From: Fibrobacter sp. UWB13
Lineage (GTDB): Bacteria; Fibrobacterota; Fibrobacteria; Fibrobacterales; Fibrobacteraceae
DNA: 64,000 nucleotides
Assembly: GCF_900177805.1 (NCBI RefSeq)
Contig: NZ_FXAX01000004.1
Coordinates: 1 to 64,000, forward strand
Direction: 5' to 3'
The position numbers and the translations under genes are program-made. Under the pieces are notes generated by a model, which made no database searches, was not told where the DNA came from, and saw nothing but the letters and a program-made list of their open reading frames with translations. Below, piece by piece: positions 625-28,135 of this stretch (position 1 is the stretch's first letter; every line of letters begins with the position of its first letter).

Positions 625-1998
625 TTACCGGTACTTTAAGCCGGGGAAAGCCTCGTAATACGACTTTTTGTCAGCGTACATGCGTTCATCGGCAAGTCGC
701 ATTGCAGTACGTATATCGCTCTCACCATAACAGACTCCGACAGAGAAGCGAACGTCCTCTGTAATTTTCGACAAGTAATGGACTTGATCGACACGACGTC
801 GGACTTCATCTTCAGCGATTTTGGACACAATTATCATGAACTCGTCACCGCCAGCACGGAAGACCTCGCCATCATGGAAAACGCTTTGCAAAATCGAGGC
901 TGCCTTACGCAACATCTTATCGCCCGCAGCATGTCCACGTTCATCATTCACTCGTTTAAGCCCATTTAAGTCCGCAAATAGTACAGCATCCGGCATCGGA
1001 ACCTGACCTTCGACAATCTGATTGACCCAATTATTCATCACGTTTCGATTCTTGATACCCGTCAGGGAATCTATCGTACTCATGACTTCAAGTTTGTTCA
1101 AAAGCTTATAACTTGCAATTTCGGATGCGATAAAGAACGTTGTAAGCTCAAGCGTTTCCTTAATCTTCATGACATCTTCGACATTGAAGTTGAGCGACCA
1201 CATATAGCCGAGCAACTTTCCACCGTGACGCAACGGGAACAGCACCACTGTTTTAACCCCGGCATAACGAAGAGACGCATGCCAAACAGGATTCCGTTCG
1301 CGCAGATTTTCCATATCGCGGTCATCTTTCAAGATGATGCAAGTGCTCCCTGCAAGCGTATCTGGCCACGTTTCCAAAATCGCATAGAACCCCTGTATAT
1401 AGCGAGCCATCGGGTACAGCCCAGACCCTTCACGGAGAGATTCCGCAAAAATCGAGCAAGTACATTTTTCATCATCGGTCAACAAAATACAGCAATGGTC
1501 CGAGCCACAAATCTTGCGGATATCCTCGACCACATCCTGGAACGCGTGCTTGATATTACCCGAGCCACGCAACTTGATGCAAGCTTTCAACACGTCAGCA
1601 GCGGTATCCGCAGAAAGGTCCGCCATCGCAGAAGAATCCGCCTTGGGGGCAACGTCATAACAGTAAATGCAATAGCCAATATTTTCTTTGTCCGAATCAA
1701 GCGGCAAAAGGAACATATTGAGCCAAAGACCCATCATGTAAAGATTCACGTAGGCATGGAGCGGCTTTCCATCGCGAATGCAACGGAAGCAATGCTCTTC
1801 AAAATTCGGATTCTTGGGGAAACAAGCCTCATAGGGGCAACCGGGTTCAAACGGATGATTCAGCGCAGCCATGTCATCGCAATGAGCTTTATTGCCCGCA
1901 ACTACACGGATATTTCCATAAGTCCCATCTGGGAAAAATTCAACAGAAACAACACAAGCCTTAGCTTTATAGTGCGACAGCAAATCATCAAAGTTCAT
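625..1998 (-). CDS. GAF-like sensor diguanylate cyclase (GGDEF)
   Basis: A 457-residue soluble protein predicted to make c-di-GMP from two GTP. The C-terminal GGDEF domain (about 308-450) starts with a DSLTGIKNRN motif and has an intact RAGGDEF active site (GGDEF at 383-387). The five-residue-upstream RxxD inhibitory site is absent, so product inhibition by that route is unlikely. Residues about 135-295 look like a GAF-type sensory domain. The N-terminal 110 residues are cysteine-rich (C-x-C pairs around 40-75 and 110-113) and may bind metal or sense redox; that is inference. The start has an AGGGGA ribosome site and a TATATT -10-like box 27 bp upstream. It lies 89 bp downstream of the cellulose-synthase-like fusion, on the same strand. 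Confidence 0.85.
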   Translation of the reverse strand: MNFDDLLSHYKAKACVVSVEFFPDGTYGNIRVVAGNKAHCDDMAALNHPFEPGCPYEACFPKNPNFEEHCFRCIRDGKPLHAYVNLYMMGLWLNMFLLPLDSDKENIGYCIYCYDVAPKADSSAMADLSADTAADVLKACIKLRGSGNIKHAFQDVVEDIRKICGSDHCCILLTDDEKCTCSIFAESLREGSGLYPMARYIQGFYAILETWPDTLAGSTCIILKDDRDMENLRERNPVWHASLRYAGVKTVVLFPLRHGGKLLGYMWSLNFNVEDVMKIKETLELTTFFIASEIASYKLLNKLEVMSTIDSLTGIKNRNVMNNWVNQIVEGQVPMPDAVLFADLNGLKRVNDERGHAAGDKMLRKAASILQSVFHDGEVFRAGGDEFMIIVSKIAEDEVRRRVDQVHYLSKITEDVRFSVGVCYGESDIRTAMRLADERMYADKKSYYEAFPGLKYR

Positions 1999-2087: not shown

Positions 2088-5000
2088 CTAAGTTCTAAAA
2101 ATTCGCCATCCTAGGTTTTTCCACAAGTTGCGAATATACTCATCGCCAAAGCGCAAGCGTTGCGGCAATGTCGGTATGCGGTCATAGAGCATTTGCACAA
2201 ACTCGTCTTTCTGACCCGCGAAATCGAGAATTTCGACCGTATAAACGCTCGGCACTTTGGGGTTGCACGAATGATGAATCGAGACAACAGTTCCCTTGAC
2301 ATTCAAGTCTTTGTTGTCCGTAGAAATTCCAAGCTCTACTTGCTCGCCCAAATAAAGTACATCAACTTCATCGACAAAGACATCCACCGAATGCTCGGTT
2401 AGCTTGGTCGTCACGCCTTCCACAAGTTTTCCATCGCCCTTGTGGAGCGCAACAAGATCGGCAGCAAAGACCTTCACATTTTCGCTATCAGAATCACGAC
2501 CAAAACCAAGGAACAAGCACATCGTGAGGTAATACGAATTGCGCACAAGCCAGAACAGCACCGCCAAAATTCCGATGTATTCAAATGCCACCATCATGTA
2601 AGTCATGTGTACAATCCCCGCAAGCGTGAGCACCAAAAGAACCGCAAACGGCAAAAGGCTTCGCTTGTCGATAACTCTACGAACACTTACCTTTTCTTTT
2701 TTCGTTACTTTAAACTTGGAAAGCGTTATGCCAAACACCTCCTTCACGACAGGCATCAAGAGGAACGGCATCACGGACGTCTCGTAAATACCGCTCCACT
2801 GCGCAGAGATTTTGCCTTGGCTCGTAACGCGGAGTGCAAGGATTTGCAAAATGTGCATCGGCAACCAGAATAACGCAAGGTCCACAAGCGTACACTTGAA
2901 AATCGGGATGCAGAACACAGCAAACATCAACGGCGAAATGAGATAAATCAAGTTCTTGATCGGCGAGAACCAGTAAAGCACGGAATTCAAGTAACTCATC
3001 TTTTGCGACACATCCAATTTATGGTTACGCAAGAACTTGAGCTGCCTTGCAGTCGCAATCACACCACGCCCCCAACGGGTGCGCTGTTGCACATGTTCCT
3101 GGAACGTCGAGGGAGCAACACCCGACGCAAGCGGTTCAGAAAGCCCGAGGCTAACATAACCCGCCGATTCAATCAGCATGCCCGTCGCAAAATCTTCCGT
3201 AATAGACTTTGTATAGAATCCGCCGATATCTTCGAGCGCTTTACGGGAAAGGATTGTATTCGAACCACCGTAAATTACGCTGTTCGTTGAAGTTTTTGCA
3301 ACCTCAATCACGTCATAGAAATAATCCTGTTCATTCGGCACAACGCGCTCGGCATAAAGATTGTGCTGGAACACGTCAGGCGTATAAAAACTTTGCGGGG
3401 TCTGGACAAAACCAAGCGCACGGCGACGTTCCTTTGGCAAGCTCGCATTGATGCGCTCGGCATCGACAAAGTACGGAATCGTCTTGAGCAAGAACTTCCG
3501 TTGCGGAATCATGTCGGCATCAAACGTTACCACATACGGAGAATTCGTCCGGGCAAGAGCAGCGTTCAAGTTTCCCGCCTTTGCACCTTTGTTATCCGGG
3601 CGATCAAAGTAAATCACGCCAAGCTCTTCGGCAAGGGCACGCATTTCCGGACGGCGGTTGTCATCGCACAGGCAAATATGGACTTTGGACTTGTCCGGGT
3701 ATTCCATGTGCTTACAGCCGATAATCGTCTTGCGCAAAAGTTCCACAGGCTCGTTGTACGTCGAAATGAAAATATCGACATCCGGGAATTCTTCATCTGC
3801 AATTTTTGGAAGCGGATGATCGCGCAACTTGAGCAAACCACCGTAATGGACAAATGATTCAAAAAAGCCGAGAACTTCTACAACAAGCAGGAGAAAACTC
3901 CCCACCACAGCTATCCAGCCATAAGCATACGGAATCGAGCATGACACACGCCAGCAGAGGTAAACGAGCGTGCAGAGCGTACTAAACAAGAGGAACATAT
4001 CGCCAAAAATCACCTTGGCTGGGCTCTTATTAAATTTTTTTGCCGCTTCGTCCGTACTGTATTTTAGCAAGTCATCGTAAGAGCGGATAATTTTGTTTTT
4101 AGAACGCTTTCTGTACTTTTCCAACGCAAGACACAGAAAGAGAAAAATAAACAGAGGCCCAGCAAACATCAGCCAGACCTTGTGTGGCTTAGAACGGGCT
4201 AAAATCTTGAAATTTTCAATCGCGCTATACTCAAGCGTAATTTGATCAATCGGTTTTCCTTGGAATAGCGCCTTTGCAAAACGTCCCGAAATTGTCAAAT
4301 CACCATCCGTCAAATATTCCACAGCACGGGAATCATCACGGATCATCGAAGATTCTTCTTCTTTATTCGAAAGATTCCAAATGGTATAGCTTATATGCAA
4401 GGAGTCAATCAAGCTATACCAAATCCTTACATTTTCAAAATCAATTTTTCCATCACCCGATTCTTCGCAAAGACCACTTTCCGTAATAAATATCGGCGTT
4501 CCTCGTTTCATGACATTACGAAGTTTTGCACGAAAGACATAAGTATGCGAAGTTGCATAAAAATGGAACGAATACATCACGTTGTCGAACGGAAGCGGAT
4601 CCTCTGCCGGGTACTGGATTTCACGAGCATAGTTTGGCGTACCAATGACAATCAGAGCATCAGGTTTGTGCCTGCGAATCACCGGGATAACGACATGCGC
4701 ATATTCCTTGATGTCTTCCCAAGTGCAGTCGCCATTGGGCTCATTGCAAATTTCAAAAATCACGTTCGGGACATTCGCATATTCCCTAGCCATTTCGTTA
4801 AAGAAGGAAATCGCCTCGGCAAGATACACATTAGGATTCTGATCTTCTAGAACATGCCAGTCCACAATAACATACATGTCATTTGCAATGGCGTATTCAA
4901 CCCCCTTGCGCAAAATTTCCATGTTCTTTTTGCGGTCGCCCTCCACATAGTCCTTGGAGTACATGGCAAGGCGAATGAGGTTCGCATTCCACTCTGTGCT

Positions 5001-5222
5001 GAGTTGCTTAAACAGTTTGTTATTCACAAACTGCGGAAACCACGTGAGACCATGGGTGCTTGCGCCCTTAAGAACGACGACATTCCCATGCTCGTCGTGA
5101 AGCTCCGTACCCACAACATGAAGTTTACCGCTCGTCGATGGACGCGCAACAGGAGTCGCCACCGCAAACGAGACAAAAAACAAAACCAAAAAGAATAGAA
5201 AGAAATATTTCCGCACAACCAT
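2088..5222 (-). CDS. GH5 endoglucanase - GT2 cellulose synthase-like fusion with PilZ-like tail
   Basis: A 1044-residue membrane protein joining a hydrolase and a polymerase. A signal or anchor segment (1-22) leads into a GH5 domain (about 30-330) with DWH at 121-123, acid/base Glu161 in CNEP and nucleophile Glu248 in TESG. Membrane segments follow (about 348-368, 405-455). The GT2 domain (about 480-725) has D520, DAD at 568-570, TED at 675-677 and QQRTRW at 712-717, the processive beta-glucan synthase signature. Further membrane helices run to about 905, then a PilZ-like barrel (about 915-1000) that lacks the RxxxR and (D/N)xSxxG c-di-GMP motifs. In known bcs operons the hydrolase is a separate GH8 protein. 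The product is probably cellulose or a related beta-glucan, with the GH5 domain outside the membrane. The ATG has no Shine-Dalgarno site. Confidence 0.88.
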   Translation of the reverse strand: MVVRKYFFLFFLVLFFVSFAVATPVARPSTSGKLHVVGTELHDEHGNVVVLKGASTHGLTWFPQFVNNKLFKQLSTEWNANLIRLAMYSKDYVEGDRKKNMEILRKGVEYAIANDMYVIVDWHVLEDQNPNVYLAEAISFFNEMAREYANVPNVIFEICNEPNGDCTWEDIKEYAHVVIPVIRRHKPDALIVIGTPNYAREIQYPAEDPLPFDNVMYSFHFYATSHTYVFRAKLRNVMKRGTPIFITESGLCEESGDGKIDFENVRIWYSLIDSLHISYTIWNLSNKEEESSMIRDDSRAVEYLTDGDLTISGRFAKALFQGKPIDQITLEYSAIENFKILARSKPHKVWLMFAGPLFIFLFLCLALEKYRKRSKNKIIRSYDDLLKYSTDEAAKKFNKSPAKVIFGDMFLLFSTLCTLVYLCWRVSCSIPYAYGWIAVVGSFLLLVVEVLGFFESFVHYGGLLKLRDHPLPKIADEEFPDVDIFISTYNEPVELLRKTIIGCKHMEYPDKSKVHICLCDDNRRPEMRALAEELGVIYFDRPDNKGAKAGNLNAALARTNSPYVVTFDADMIPQRKFLLKTIPYFVDAERINASLPKERRRALGFVQTPQSFYTPDVFQHNLYAERVVPNEQDYFYDVIEVAKTSTNSVIYGGSNTILSRKALEDIGGFYTKSITEDFATGMLIESAGYVSLGLSEPLASGVAPSTFQEHVQQRTRWGRGVIATARQLKFLRNHKLDVSQKMSYLNSVLYWFSPIKNLIYLISPLMFAVFCIPIFKCTLVDLALFWLPMHILQILALRVTSQGKISAQWSGIYETSVMPFLLMPVVKEVFGITLSKFKVTKKEKVSVRRVIDKRSLLPFAVLLVLTLAGIVHMTYMMVAFEYIGILAVLFWLVRNSYYLTMCLFLGFGRDSDSENVKVFAADLVALHKGDGKLVEGVTTKLTEHSVDVFVDEVDVLYLGEQVELGISTDNKDLNVKGTVVSIHHSCNPKVPSVYTVEILDFAGQKDEFVQMLYDRIPTLPQRLRFGDEYIRNLWKNLGWRIFRT

Positions 5223-5275: not shown

Positions 5276-5303
5276 AAAAAAGCACCCCACATTTGCAGGG
5301 TGC
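5276..5303 (-). terminator. rho-independent terminator of the 5330-6223 lipoprotein gene
   Basis: On the minus strand GCACCC and GGGTGC arms (5282-5303) close a hairpin that is followed by TTTTTT (forward A run at 5276-5281). It lies about 27 bp after the stop of the lipoprotein gene and before the promoter of the GH5-GT2 gene, so it separates the two units. Confidence 0.85.
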
Positions 5304-5329: not shown

Positions 5330-6223
5330 TTACTTGCCGTGGCGGAGCTTGGAACCAATAGCGCGGAAAATATCCTTAATCTGTTTTTCGGTCATCGTCG
5401 GCGTTTCGGCAGACTTGGCAAGACCCGTCCTATTATGGAAGTTTGTAATCAAGTCTACAAATTCAGCGGAAGCAGAGATGTCCTGATCATAGAGATCAAA
5501 ATTGAAGAATTCCTGCGTTTCGCCGTTTTCATATTCTTGCTGATAATCCTTAAAAGCCTTTTTACAATCATTTTCGACATACGCATAGCGGAAACCCTGC
5601 TTGACGGTGCTAGTCACGCCACCATACGACACCGTATATTCAATGGAACCCTGCGTATGAGAGACATAAGTCATTTCAAGACCTTCAATGCTGAGAGTCT
5701 TGCAGCTCATGTTAATAGAGTTCTTCGGAACTTTCGCAATCAAGGAAAGCGTTTCTTGCATTTCGCCAAAGTTTTCGAAAATGCAATCCGTATTGATATA
5801 GATAACATCACTGTAATACGGATCTTCGAGAACGACACCTTCAATCAGCGGACTTTTAACTGTCGCGCTCTTATAGAAATTGCCTTCTGGGAACTGTTCA
5901 CCGGCAGCAACTCTAAATTCATAAGTGTTCTTGCCAGCACCATCACCCAAATCCATTTGAGCCGTGCCGTTGCCAGCATCCGTCAATGCACCATGCTGAG
6001 TCGTCTTTTTCCAAACAGCTTCGTTTGCATAATCCGTGCAAGTAGCCTTGGTAATTTCCAAGGTGCCATCGGCAGCATAGCTATATTCACCCATTTCAGA
6101 AATGATATAGTCCGTCGGGAGGGCGGCTGGAGTTGGAGCCACGGAGCTGGAATCATCGGAAGACGATACGCAACCCGTCATAGCAAGGGCGACCGCAGGG
6201 AGTACGGCAAGAACTTTTTTCAT
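5330..6223 (-). CDS. secreted lipoprotein of unknown function
   Basis: A 297-residue protein starting MKKVLAVLPAVALAMTGC, a standard lipoprotein signal with a lipobox cysteine at residue 18, followed by a Ser/Pro-rich linker. I chose ATG 6223 because a GAGGA ribosome site lies 7 nt before it; the in-frame ATG at 6232 and upstream start lack this. The body is rich in beta-type sequence with several cysteines (CTDYANEA, NTDCIFENFG, SCKTLSIEG, NDCKKAF) that could pair as disulfides. I do not recognise the family. It is monocistronic, with its own promoter and terminator. The most likely location is the outer membrane or the periplasm. Confidence 0.8.
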   Translation of the reverse strand: MKKVLAVLPAVALAMTGCVSSSDDSSSVAPTPAALPTDYIISEMGEYSYAADGTLEITKATCTDYANEAVWKKTTQHGALTDAGNGTAQMDLGDGAGKNTYEFRVAAGEQFPEGNFYKSATVKSPLIEGVVLEDPYYSDVIYINTDCIFENFGEMQETLSLIAKVPKNSINMSCKTLSIEGLEMTYVSHTQGSIEYTVSYGGVTSTVKQGFRYAYVENDCKKAFKDYQQEYENGETQEFFNFDLYDQDISASAEFVDLITNFHNRTGLAKSAETPTMTEKQIKDIFRAIGSKLRHGK

Positions 6224-6351: not shown

Positions 6352-7062
6352 TTACCAATCCTTAGCCGGGCGAGCTTGACCGCGGACGGGTTTCCAGGGC
6401 TTGCGTTCACCGTTCTGTTCGTCAAAGTCCTTGAGGAGCTGGGCCGCTTCTTCAGGAGTCATTTCGCCAGGTTGAAGCGGCTGCTGTTCTGGCTCACCGC
6501 CGTTACTATCACTGGAATTCCCTTCGGACTGTTCGGGCTGCTGCTGCTCTCCGGCACCGCCATTGCTATCAGAACTATCGCCACCCTGGCTACTGCTAGA
6601 CTGACCGTTCTGACCTTGATTCTGTTGATCTTGGTTTTGGTCATTCTGGGCGCTAGAGGAACTCTGGTCGCCATTCTGGTTCTGATTTTGCTGATCCTGG
6701 TTCTGCTGATCTTTATTCTGGTCTTGGTTTTGCTTGTCCTGATTCTGATCCTGGTTTTGATCCTGATTATTTTGGTCTTGATTCTGGTCGTTTTTAGGAT
6801 CGTTCTTCTTATTTTCGTTCTTTTGCTCGTCCTTCGCTTCGTGAATGCGGTCGAGGAGCATCTGCAATTTCTGATCGTTCGGGTAGTATTGCAAGCCTTC
6901 GTTGCAAGTGATTTCTGCTGTCGGCAAGCGGTTTTCGATGTACTGGAACGCCGCATCGCCATAGTAGGCAGAAGCCGACTTCGGAGCCGCGAATGCAACG
7001 GATGCAAGGAACAAAGTTACAGACGAGAGACGAATGACGAGAGAGGAGAGAGACTGCTTCAT
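6352..7062 (-). CDS. BatC-like exported protein with Gln/Asn/Asp-rich repeat
   Basis: A 236-residue protein with a signal peptide (about 1-25) and a short TPR-like helical segment (about 32-72). A long low-complexity run of N, Q, D and K (about 80-150) and a Ser/Gly/Gln stretch (150-195) follow. The tail MTPEEAAQLLKDFDEQNGER ... KDW resembles the end of BatC-type proteins from Bacteroides aerotolerance (Bat) operons. The start overlaps the stop of the preceding TPR gene (TAATG). Its ribosome site GGAGGTGATC matches the 16S 3' end over 10 nt and is embedded in the last codons of that gene, so translation is probably coupled. The usual Bat partners (VWA proteins, MoxR) are not in the window, so the BatC identity is tentative. 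Confidence 0.7.
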   Translation of the reverse strand: MKQSLSSLVIRLSSVTLFLASVAFAAPKSASAYYGDAAFQYIENRLPTAEITCNEGLQYYPNDQKLQMLLDRIHEAKDEQKNENKKNDPKNDQNQDQNNQDQNQDQNQDKQNQDQNKDQQNQDQQNQNQNGDQSSSSAQNDQNQDQQNQGQNGQSSSSQGGDSSDSNGGAGEQQQPEQSEGNSSDSNGGEPEQQPLQPGEMTPEEAAQLLKDFDEQNGERKPWKPVRGQARPAKDW

Positions 7063-7811
7063 TAGATCACCTCCAGGTCGTTGTCGGTGTTGCTAGCGTC
7101 AATCTTTGCCTTGGGCTTGCGACCGGCTTTGATTTCGATAACGTCATCAATGCGCTGGACATGGCCGCTCAATTGGCTTGCGGTTTCATCTTCGGCAATC
7201 AGATTCTCGAGCATCTGCTTGCCTTCGGCATACTTGCCATCCTTGCAAAGCTGGAGCGCACGAGCCAAAACCTGCTTAGCTTTTTCGCTCAGCGGAGGTT
7301 GTTTCTGGTCATTCTGATTTTGGTTCTGGTCCTTGTTTTCTTTTTGCTTGTCGAGTTCTTCCTTAAGCTTACGCTGGACAATTTCAACGTTCTTCTTCGC
7401 GTTTTCAAAATCGTTATCGAGGTCAATTGCCTTTTTCAAATAAGCAACCGATTCACGCCAGGCCGCAATGCGCGCACTCGGTTCCTGAGCTTTTTCGCCC
7501 ACGCGGAAATGCGTATTCGCCAAGTTATACGCCGCCTTCGCCGCCATATTCCTGTCGGGCATGCGCACAGCGCTTTCGAGTTCCTTCTTGGCTTCTTCAA
7601 AATTGCCAAGCTTGTATTGGCACGTTCCAATGTTGTAGAACAAAAGCGGATTTGCGGGCTCCGCTTCGCGGGCCTTCATGTACTTTTCAAGCGCACCGGC
7701 ATAATCGCCAGCGGCAAAAAGCTTGTTGCCATCATTGATTGGTCGGGCAAACGTCGCCACAGCCATAAGCATCGTCAAAGAACAAATCTTAAATACAGTA
7801 GAAATTCGCAT
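7062..7811 (-). CDS. TPR protein, BatC/BatE-like, periplasmic
   Basis: A 249-residue protein with an N-terminal signal peptide (to about ATFA). At least two TPR units follow (NKLFAAGDYAGALEKYMKA, then LLFYNIGTCQYKLGNFEEAK), with a further helical pair around AAKAAYNLANTHFRVG. A charged QNQND linker leads to a second helical domain. ATG 7811 is preferred over the GTG two codons upstream because AGAAG is closer to normal spacing. TPR proteins scaffold complexes; together with its overlapping neighbour it resembles the TPR pair at the end of Bat operons. No catalytic motif is visible. Confidence 0.75.
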   Translation of the reverse strand: MRISTVFKICSLTMLMAVATFARPINDGNKLFAAGDYAGALEKYMKAREAEPANPLLFYNIGTCQYKLGNFEEAKKELESAVRMPDRNMAAKAAYNLANTHFRVGEKAQEPSARIAAWRESVAYLKKAIDLDNDFENAKKNVEIVQRKLKEELDKQKENKDQNQNQNDQKQPPLSEKAKQVLARALQLCKDGKYAEGKQMLENLIAEDETASQLSGHVQRIDDVIEIKAGRKPKAKIDASNTDNDLEVI

Positions 7812-7862
7812 ATTCACACTTCTTATTCTTTTTCGAACACCAATATATCAAATTTCAACTTC

Positions 7863-25685: not shown

Positions 25686-27017
25686 TTAGTGGTTACGTCT
25701 GAACGTTGCGACCGTCACGCGGTTGCGGCCATTTTCCTTAGAAGAGTAGAGAGCCTTGTCCGCACGGGCAATGAGAGACTTCGGATCTTCGCCAGGCACC
25801 ATCTCGGTCACGCCGAAGGAGCAAGTCACCTGCTGCTGCGTGATAAGCGTCGAAGCTTCGATCGCCTTGCGCAACTTCTCGGCGAGGAACGCGGCATTCT
25901 GGATGCTCGTGTCTTCACTCAAGATCACAAATTCTTCGCCGCCCCAGCGCACGAGCGAGTCCGTATTGCGGATCATGCCCTGCACGAGCTTTGCGAGATT
26001 CACGAGAACTTCGTCACCGACAAGATGTCCGTAAGTGTCGTTCACGTTCTTGAAATGGTCAATGTCGAAAATCATGAACGAGACCGGAGAACCCGTGCGG
26101 TTGAGCTTTTCCTGTTCGCGGAGGAGCACACCGCTGAAGCCTGCGCGGTTGAGACAGCCCGTGAGCGGGTCTTCCTTGCTGGACTTTTCGTATTCACTCT
26201 TTTCGATTTCGAGAGCTATGAGGTTCTTCTTGAGTTCTTCTTGCTTCTTCTTGTTCAGAGCGCGTTCACGACTGTAGTCAAAGAATCTGATGATCAAGAT
26301 GATAAGGAAGGTGACAAACCAGAGAGCGACAAGCGTCGTCACGAGGTCTACCTGCGAAATCTTCTTGCCCTTGAAGCGAAGTCCCTTGATTTCCCAACCG
26401 CCATAACCGAGCGGAGCGTTCGTACCAGTCTGGATTTCAATAAGCGGGATATTCGAAAGGTCTACGCGAGCCTTGTGAACGTTGATTTCGTTCTGGGAAA
26501 CCCACCAGCCAGCCACGCGGAATTCCTGCGGGACAAACACAGCCGGATACGGTTCCTTGGTCGGAGTAAATTCGATTTCGTTAAACTTGAGGGAAGTTTC
26601 GTCATTCTTGCGGTAGAGAGCGCTATCGTAACCGCGCATGTAAAGGCGGACGGAACCCTCGTTACGCGGCTTGAGCCACACGAAGATGCTGTCGTAGTTG
26701 GAAAGGTCGCGGCCCATGGTCTTGCCATCGCCGAGATAGACCTTGATGCCCACATACGGGTAAGCGTAACCTTCACGGAGTTCATACTCGATGAGGACCG
26801 AGCTATCGGTGCGCGTCATGGAAATAGCAGAAGTACCGCCATCCACGGAGTCGGCACTTGCGACCACGTACGGATATTCGCCGAGATTAATCTCCATGAT
26901 GTCGTCTAAGAAATGCCTATACGCAAACATGGCTACGGCAGTAATTACCAGAAGCACAATAATCAGGAAATTCATCCTGAAAAGGGCATAAACTTTTCTC
27001 ATAACTTTTGAAGACAT
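25686..27017 (-). CDS. membrane diguanylate cyclase with carbohydrate-binding-like periplasmic sensor
   Basis: A 443-residue protein. One membrane helix (about 16-36) leads to a periplasmic domain (about 37-220). A second helix follows (about 224-247), then a short coiled coil (250-275) and a GGDEF domain with DPLTGCLNRAGF and active site GGEEF. RNTD lies exactly five residues before GGEEF, so the inhibitory I-site is intact. The periplasmic domain has the YDSIFVWLKPRNEGSVRLYM and LIEIQTGTNAPLGYGGWEI pattern of CBM11/CIA30-like beta-sandwiches. It may sense a glycan and convert it to c-di-GMP. ATG 27017 is preferred over GTG 27023. It sits between the CE2 esterase and a small lipoprotein. Confidence 0.85.
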   Translation of the reverse strand: MSSKVMRKVYALFRMNFLIIVLLVITAVAMFAYRHFLDDIMEINLGEYPYVVASADSVDGGTSAISMTRTDSSVLIEYELREGYAYPYVGIKVYLGDGKTMGRDLSNYDSIFVWLKPRNEGSVRLYMRGYDSALYRKNDETSLKFNEIEFTPTKEPYPAVFVPQEFRVAGWWVSQNEINVHKARVDLSNIPLIEIQTGTNAPLGYGGWEIKGLRFKGKKISQVDLVTTLVALWFVTFLIILIIRFFDYSRERALNKKKQEELKKNLIALEIEKSEYEKSSKEDPLTGCLNRAGFSGVLLREQEKLNRTGSPVSFMIFDIDHFKNVNDTYGHLVGDEVLVNLAKLVQGMIRNTDSLVRWGGEEFVILSEDTSIQNAAFLAEKLRKAIEASTLITQQQVTCSFGVTEMVPGEDPKSLIARADKALYSSKENGRNRVTVATFRRNH

Positions 27018-27085
27018 AATCACATATCCATTTTTGGCATCAGTGTTTTCTAAATATATAAAAAAGGATTTTTCCCGTGCCTAAA

Positions 27086-28135
27086 TTATCTTGAAAGCCA
27101 CCGTCCAAGCCGGGCTATTATGGGCCTCAAGGTGTTCGCGAGTTCTTCCTGGGAATGGGTGTCAGGATGTCCATGCAAACCGACATTCGACGTGAGAACG
27201 TGTTTATATTCCAAATCCTTGTGACCGGCAGCAATTTGAGCGTCGTAAATCGACTTTATCGTCGGGGCGAGGTCATCATTGGGCCATACTTTCGTGGAAA
27301 CGAGCAGGAATTTTACGCCGGGGTGCGCCTTGCGGAGCTTATCGAGCAATTTAGCATATGCTTTCTTGAATTTTCCTTTATCTGCATACGGCGGATTACC
27401 CTGAAAATCGTTAATTCCTTCAAAAATTACGATGACCTGCGGGTGGAACTTTTCCAAATCCCAGCGTTCCGGCTTCGTATACGAGGTCACGGAGCCCATG
27501 ACCGTGTAATCATAGAGTCGTTCGTACGTCCATTCGGGTACCATGTTGTCATAGTTGCGCACAAGGCCGCGTCCGCTGTAGGCATTCACCTGATAGTCGG
27601 CATTGAAACCGCTCGCAAGGAGGTAGGCGTAGCTCTTGGAAGCGTTCGTCTTGTCAAACTCGGGCGCGTCCTCGGCAGAGGAGCCTTCGCAGCCATAGCC
27701 CGCGGTAAAGGAATCGCCGATGAACTCGATGCGGCGATTGGACGGCTTGGGTGCTTCGCCAAATTCACCATCGACGGAAATGCCGTAGAACTTGATTTCG
27801 GGAACGCCGCTTTCGCTAATCTTGATGAAACGGTACTTGTGGAAATTGCCATCGTCCTCTACCTTGATGGTTCGCTCTTCCTTGGAATCGACTTCGAACT
27901 GTTCAACGGGCTTGCCGTCGCGGTCTAGGCGCCAGCGGGAATGACCTTCGACCGTAAACGTAATCTTTGAAGCCTTGGCGTTGAACGTGATGGATGCGGC
28001 AGGCGCACTCGCGCGGCTTACGCCGTTATCATGGGCCCAGCGGCCATTGAACAGAAGGTTTTCCATAGAAGAGGATGCTCCGAAAGAGTACGCGGCAAGC
28101 GCACCCAGGAAAAGGAATATGCGGACAAGATTCAT
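27086..28135 (-). CDS. CE2-type acetyl (xylan) esterase, secreted
   Basis: A 349-residue enzyme with a signal peptide (1-19), an N-terminal beta-sandwich (about 25-125) and a C-terminal SGNH hydrolase domain (about 133-349). The catalytic Ser142 is in GDSFTAGYG. GINDF is the third SGNH block and HGHPDTHS (321-328) gives the Asp/His end. Beta-sandwich plus SGNH is the carbohydrate esterase family 2 layout. CE2 enzymes deacetylate xylan or other polysaccharides and some bind cellulose. It would act outside the cell on hemicellulose. It is 68 bp upstream of the diguanylate cyclase on the same strand, so co-expression is possible. Confidence 0.88.
   Translation of the reverse strand: MNLVRIFLFLGALAAYSFGASSSMENLLFNGRWAHDNGVSRASAPAASITFNAKASKITFTVEGHSRWRLDRDGKPVEQFEVDSKEERTIKVEDDGNFHKYRFIKISESGVPEIKFYGISVDGEFGEAPKPSNRRIEFIGDSFTAGYGCEGSSAEDAPEFDKTNASKSYAYLLASGFNADYQVNAYSGRGLVRNYDNMVPEWTYERLYDYTVMGSVTSYTKPERWDLEKFHPQVIVIFEGINDFQGNPPYADKGKFKKAYAKLLDKLRKAHPGVKFLLVSTKVWPNDDLAPTIKSIYDAQIAAGHKDLEYKHVLTSNVGLHGHPDTHSQEELANTLRPIIARLGRWLSR

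Follow-up and report, generated by a model that had tools for sequence, protein, structure and literature searches.

A GH5-GT2-PilZ-like fusion shared by gut bacteria of four phyla is a probable self-contained beta-glucan synthase with a built-in hydrolase

The window analysed here, 64,000 nucleotides of contig C4 of a 3.8-Mb Fibrobacter genome, encodes a single polypeptide in which a GH5 domain is joined to a BcsA-type GT2 synthase with its membrane channel (residues 345-908) and to a C-terminal PilZ-like domain. The fusion is a real gene, widely shared among gut bacteria of four phyla, and its product is probably a self-contained beta-glucan synthase whose hydrolase, predicted on the outer face of the membrane, would trim or release the emerging chain. 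GH-GT2 fusions are already known and the GH5-GT2-PilZ form is new; no paper on a GH5-GT2 fusion was found in the openly accessible literature (CAZy lay outside this search). The following features are referred to below.

2088-5222, minus strand: GH5-GT2-PilZ-like fusion gene, 1044 amino acids (open reading frame, Pfam, full-length homologues)
5154-5222, minus strand: signal peptide or N-terminal hydrophobic segment, residues 1-23, fast-evolving (hydropathy, identity comparison)
4248-5147, minus strand: GH5 (GH5_2-type) endoglucanase domain, residues 26-325 (Pfam; VIA, Z 44 to Cel5A)
4740-4742 and 4479-4481, minus strand: codons of the GH5 glutamates E161 and E248, respectively
4101-4187, minus strand: predicted first synthase transmembrane helix, residues 346-374, running from outside to inside (AF2 model, hydropathy)
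3834-4022, minus strand: predicted transmembrane helices ahead of the GT domain, residues 401-463
3018-3785, minus strand: GT2 synthase domain, residues 480-735, with D520, DAD 568-570, TED 675-677 and QQRTRW 712-717 (Pfam, model)
2502-3011, minus strand: channel helices and gating loop FKVTKK (loop 837-842), residues 738-907 (model, alignment)
2223-2498, minus strand: PilZ-like beta barrel, residues 909-1000, without RxxxR and DxSxxG (model, alignment)
625-1998, minus strand: gene for a GAF-GGDEF protein with an intact GGDEF motif, 89 bp downstream of the fusion
5282-5303, minus strand: terminator-like hairpin followed by T6, belonging to the upstream gene (consensus match)

From the ATG at 5222 down to 2088, the minus strand carries one uninterrupted reading frame. 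An in-frame stop and a sequence error at the junction of the two halves, named by the original prediction as possible objections, were both looked for; the gene contains no internal stop, and no error was found at the junction, which the same frame crosses in full-length homologues from independent assemblies, including the isolates Butyrivibrio NC2002 and LC3010. An assembly artefact or pseudogene was rejected on the basis of intact homologues in independent genomes and of purifying selection. It is accordingly extremely improbable that the gene is an assembly chimera or a decaying fusion, as the only sign in favour of this is one decayed second copy in another Fibrobacter genome, G014 (L043:7400-8623 and 5724-5867, both minus strand), of which residues 634-1041 and 588-635 are left, against dozens of full-length homologues.

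Both active sites are under strong purifying selection. Against L073 and L046, the two comparisons with estimable dS (which is mostly saturated in more distant pairs), dN/dS was 0.07-0.11 for the GH5 domain, 0.05-0.07 for the GT2 part and up to 0.8 for the signal segment. This segment is 88% identical to that of the near-identical L073 and only 17-40% identical to those of L046, L044, L050 and L052, whereas the GH5 domain remains 70-80% identical in Fibrobacter lineages showing this drop. Judging from the terminator consensus match upstream, the fusion gene probably begins its own transcription unit. Eleven terminator-like matches were found where 6.6 +/- 2.6 were expected, and 8 promoter-like matches where 9.1 were expected; internal matches of both kinds at the junction (4155-4180 and 4381-4408) were rejected, as these counts were not convincing.

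In the GH5 half, hmmscan placed PF00150 at residues 43-287 with an E value of 2e-57 and 195 bits, over the curated cut-off of 23.5, and the Pfam profile search gave no match to a GH17 or a GH6 domain in the fusion protein. The two catalytic glutamates, E161 and E248, lie where the original prediction had put them and are invariant in all 31 aligned fusions, as are R84, H123, N160, H220, Y222 and W282; we take these eight residues to be the conserved GH5 active-site positions. In an AF2 model built from the 31 aligned fusions (mean pLDDT 80, pTM 0.73), residues 24-325 superpose on Cel5A endoglucanases with Z of about 44 and rmsd of 1.2-1.6 (VIA), and the nearest solved GH5 relatives are Cel5A endoglucanases that are 37-44% identical (Z 42-44). 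Subfamily GH5_2 is named in PDB titles among the close structure matches, and 6UJE (CcsZ, GH5_25) scored 49 bits whereas the best Cel5A reached 263, which places the domain outside GH5_25. Since GH5 is a retaining family, the domain might act mainly as a transglycosylase, cyclising or branching the glucan or transferring it to an acceptor. Such a role has been proposed for the pseudomonad GH17-GT2 proteins, whose layout is the same (PMC10237404); however, the hydrolytic character of the nearest solved relatives and the eight unchanged catalytic positions make it unlikely for the fusion.

In the synthase half, PF00535, PF13632 and PF13641 (GT2) matched residues 480-770 (hmmscan). The motifs that had led to the description of a complete GT2 enzyme were recovered at the residues given there, with D483, D520, D521, D568, D570, T675-E676-D677, Q713, R714, R716 and W717 invariant and the gating-loop residues F837, V839, T840 and K842 constant across the 31 fusions. 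The membrane channel was likewise borne out by the AF2 model, in which the region from residue 345 to about 1018, or beyond, superposes on E. coli BcsA (Z 32.7, 598 residues, rmsd 4.4) and on R. sphaeroides BcsA (Z 31.7), the overlap taking in the channel helices and the PilZ region. TIGR03030 (CelA) matched residues 409-953 with 362.5 bits, below its equivalog cut-off of 699.1, and PRK11498 gave 285.6 bits against a cut-off of 992; as the TIGR03030 score lies below the cut-off, the product need not be cellulose.

Along the chain, a signal-like hydrophobic segment is followed by the GH5 domain, helices at residues 346-374, 401-428 and 436-463, the GT domain and further helices up to residue 907. 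Predicted cytosolic loops are rich in K/R (10 in residues 371-402, 4 in 726-740 and 8 in 830-853) whereas the predicted outer loops contain none or one, and this distribution predicts the GH5 domain to lie on the outer face, the side to which BcsA-type channels open. The positive-inside pattern, the signal peptide and the BcsA-like helices therefore agree with the earlier suggestion of an outer-face hydrolase, at the level of a predicted topology.

With this arrangement, the cytosolic GT2 domain would polymerise UDP-glucose and the helices would carry the chain through the inner membrane via the BcsA-like channel, while on the outer side of the membrane the GH5_2 domain, tethered in front of the channel, would cut the still amorphous chain, thereby shortening or releasing it and preventing aggregation, a job done elsewhere by the separate enzymes BcsZ and CcsZ. 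Cutting would take place at the cell surface in the Gram-positive members and in the periplasm in Fibrobacter. Why cellulose synthases need a cellulase (BcsZ, CcsZ, plant KORRIGAN) is an old question, and a naturally occurring 1:1 fusion in which both active sites are intact allows it to be addressed with single-residue mutants of one protein. Either cellulose or mixed-linkage beta-glucan may be the product, and the sequence does not decide between them. That the same machine makes a (1,3;1,4)-mixed-linkage beta-glucan, with GH5 acting on the 1,4-linked stretches, is a possibility to be taken seriously, although not the one we favour. It fits the frequent pairing of separate GT2 relatives with genes for GH5_4, a broad-specificity group, but less well the fact that GH5_2 enzymes are mostly beta-1,4-endoglucanases. 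The characterised Gram-positive synthase RiGT2, which lacks BcsB, makes mixed-linkage glucan and has the PilZ motif RTSER (PMC10374906), which is also the motif of L160, the closest separate relative of the fusions; however, no linkage-deciding sequence feature was found in the RiGT2 study (PMC10374906) and RiGT2 is not in the GT2 tree described below.

The C-terminal PilZ-like domain had been overlooked by the original prediction, as had the GAF-GGDEF gene. It aligns to BcsA in the AF2 model despite the absence of the c-di-GMP motifs: DxSxxG occurs in 0 of 31 fusions as against 15 of 19 separate GT2 relatives, and RxxxR in 1 of 31 as against all 19. In the fusions, GRDxDxE is near-invariant and E943-H944 invariant. 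The fusion synthase would thus be independent of c-di-GMP. RiGT2 keeps its PilZ motifs, is active without added c-di-GMP and showed no response to it, yet requires its PilZ domain (PMC10374906), so that by analogy the PilZ-like domain of the fusions may have a structural role or may bind another ligand. A more speculative and rather doubtful extension is a one-gene oligosaccharide factory, in which the synthase feeds its own hydrolase to yield, in the periplasm or the medium, short glucans of a defined length under the control of a PilZ ligand other than c-di-GMP, GRDxDxE and E943-H944 being the tentatively proposed marks of this control. Cellodextrin efflux is known in Fibrobacter, and there such a factory, if real, would be a possible extra source of the efflux or of periplasmic glucans.

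A search for other GH5-GT2 fusions found more of them. Of 37 Fibrobacter genomes in a first sample, 8 carried the fusion at full length; in a wider sample it was present in 16 of 61, as 15 complete genes and one truncated by the end of a contig. Scanning 84,980 species genomes revealed about 36 fused loci in Fibrobacter, Treponema JC4, Butyrivibrio NC2002, LC3010 and other Lachnospiraceae, Oscillospiraceae YRB3002, Solobacterium, Clostridia and one Atopobiaceae MAG, most of which came from the rumen or the gut of herbivores. Searches by family detected the fusion in 4/397 Lachnospiraceae genomes (one frameshifted), 2/195 genomes of the Treponema family, 4/115 of the YRB3002 family, 8/140 Atopobiaceae (two partial) and 12/245 of the Solobacterium family; this repetition in several genomes per family argues against MAG contamination as the explanation. 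In Treponema JC4 the GH5 part is interrupted by a frame break, whereas the second genome of that family has an intact copy; frame breaks also occur in some MAG copies. The fusion had been thought striking in a cellulose-degrading lineage, but it is not peculiar to it, since the clade extends more widely across gut Bacillota and Atopobiaceae.

A GT2 tree of 73 rows grouped all 42 fusions in one clade (SH-aLRT 100) nested among stand-alone Lachnospiraceae GT2s, L160 being the nearest, and in a GH5 tree 29 fused domains formed one clade (support 100) beside secreted cellulases of Lachnospiraceae and relatives and apart from Fibrobacter's own GH5s; both are quick trees, built without bootstrap. 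Fusion of Fibrobacter's own cellulase was rejected, because the GH5 groups with clostridial secreted enzymes. One fused clade in both trees points to a single fusion event, and the most economical reading is that a synthase of the ccs-operon type in a gut Lachnospiraceae-like bacterium was joined once to a secreted GH5 cellulase, and that the fused gene would then have left its operon, shed the c-di-GMP motifs from its PilZ domain and moved on its own between gut phyla, including Fibrobacter. Judging from the tree, stand-alone synthases encoded in Lachnospiraceae ccs-like operons gave rise to the GT2 half. The Fibrobacter/Treponema group lies inside a fused clade that otherwise consists of Bacillota and Atopobiaceae, and Fibrobacter most likely acquired the fusion by transfer. 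In the full-length tree, likewise a quick one without bootstrap, Treponema is placed next to the window's subclade (96), though the AU test for monophyly of Fibrobacter alone against Treponema gave p 0.066.

The position of the GH5 domain next to secreted clostridial cellulases would also suit an ordinary cellulase for food degradation that became attached to the cell surface through chance fusion with a synthase of unrelated activity. This is very unlikely, however, because both halves have stayed joined and constrained across four phyla at about 50% divergence, because separate synthases have gained GH5 partner genes repeatedly, and because the domain would be periplasmic in Fibrobacter. Read-through of adjacent Lachnospiraceae GH5/GT2 pairs (L178, L180, L186, L173, L174, L179, L187) was not supported as the source of the fusion, since neither half is sister to it, so that GH5 partners were recruited more than once. 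In three of these loci (L178:5883-8738, L180:7046-9919, L186:5822-8643) a separate GH5 gene adjoins a short GT2 gene without PilZ, an independent pairing of GH5 and synthase; the pair is followed by a BspA-type leucine-rich-repeat protein in L180 and by a protein of the same cluster in L178 and L186.

Comparison with known systems places the fusion among several precedents, so that the original claim of hydrolase and synthase in one chain holds, whereas joining or pairing as such is familiar from GH17-GT2 and CesA-GH6 proteins (PMC10237404, PMC7464555) and from separate-gene GH5 partners of cellulose synthases, namely GH5_25 CcsZ (PMC7710045) and GH5_1 in Acidisarcina (PMC9693552). The fusion shares with BcsA (R. 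sphaeroides 4P00, E. coli 9B8V) the GT2 fold, the D/DxD/TED/QxxRW residues, the channel helices, the FxVTxK loop and the C-terminal PilZ-like barrel, but differs in its score below the TIGR03030 cut-off, its N-terminal GH5, the lost c-di-GMP motifs and, in Fibrobacter, the lack of BcsB and BcsC. Clostridial ccsZABHI (C. difficile CcsA and CcsZ) and the Lachnospiraceae ccs-like operons also combine a BcsA-type synthase with a GH5 partner, in Gram-positive bacteria, but the fusion is one gene with a GH5_2 domain, whereas the partner is GH5_25 in C. difficile (PMC7710045) and GH5_4 in the Lachnospiraceae operons. The pseudomonad BcsA-like Orphan/NdvB GH17-GT2 proteins, for which a make-then-process mechanism was proposed (PMC10237404), resemble it in layout, a single chain that leads, in the fusion by predicted topology, from a signal peptide and an extracytoplasmic GH to helices and GT2, but occur in other taxa and carry GH17 (beta-1,3, cyclising). 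Tunicate CesA (PMC7464555, PMC10334666) is likewise a horizontally acquired cellulose synthase joined to a cellulase-family domain, although its GH6 is C-terminal, lacks the catalytic aspartate and is probably inactive, whereas the fusion's GH5 is N-terminal with all catalytic residues. RiGT2/Cgs of Romboutsia ilealis (PMC10374906) is a comparable single-subunit GT2 with a PilZ fold; it is unfused and keeps RxxxR and NxSxxG.

Partner subunits were searched for in 41 Fibrobacter genomes, in none of which BcsB (PF03170) or, over the cut-off, BcsC (PF05420) was detected, and no outer-membrane exporter for a Fibrobacter glucan was identified. No partner gene near the fusions is conserved across taxa; the recurring annotated neighbours are ABC ATPases, an APH/STAS protein, a SpoIIE-type protein, Fib_succ_major proteins and aconitase. 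MBOAT and AlgX/DHHW genes were absent from the checked genes around the window's fusion and from the annotated recurring neighbours of other fusions. A synthase of this type can thus dispense with partner subunits and c-di-GMP motifs and be passed between rumen phyla as one gene. A conserved operon or GGDEF control system was rejected, since neighbours differ between taxa and the downstream GAF-GGDEF gene occurs only in the window's Fibrobacter subclade (window, L073, L046), which leaves its functional association with the fusion uncertain; a gene with an intact GGDEF motif here lies directly downstream of a synthase without c-di-GMP motifs. Upstream of the fusion, at 6352-7817 on the minus strand, lie genes for a TPR protein and then a protein with a long Q/N/D-rich low-complexity stretch, kept in the same subclade.

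Carriage by plasmids or phages was rejected, as 0 places in the plasmid collection covered 80% of the fusion and no relative was confirmed in viral contigs. The plasmid NC_020820.1 of Levilactobacillus brevis carries at 26293-28131 an unfused GT2 that is 34.5% identical to the synthase half. In the Lachnospiraceae locus L160:907-10225, the gene order is VTC, DUF4956, CotH, MBOAT, AlgX/DHHW, GT2 with PilZ, and GH5, the hydrolase being of GH5_4 type, and by its gene content this operon follows the ccsZABHI pattern (PMC7710045). VTC, DUF4956 and CotH recur in about eleven loci.
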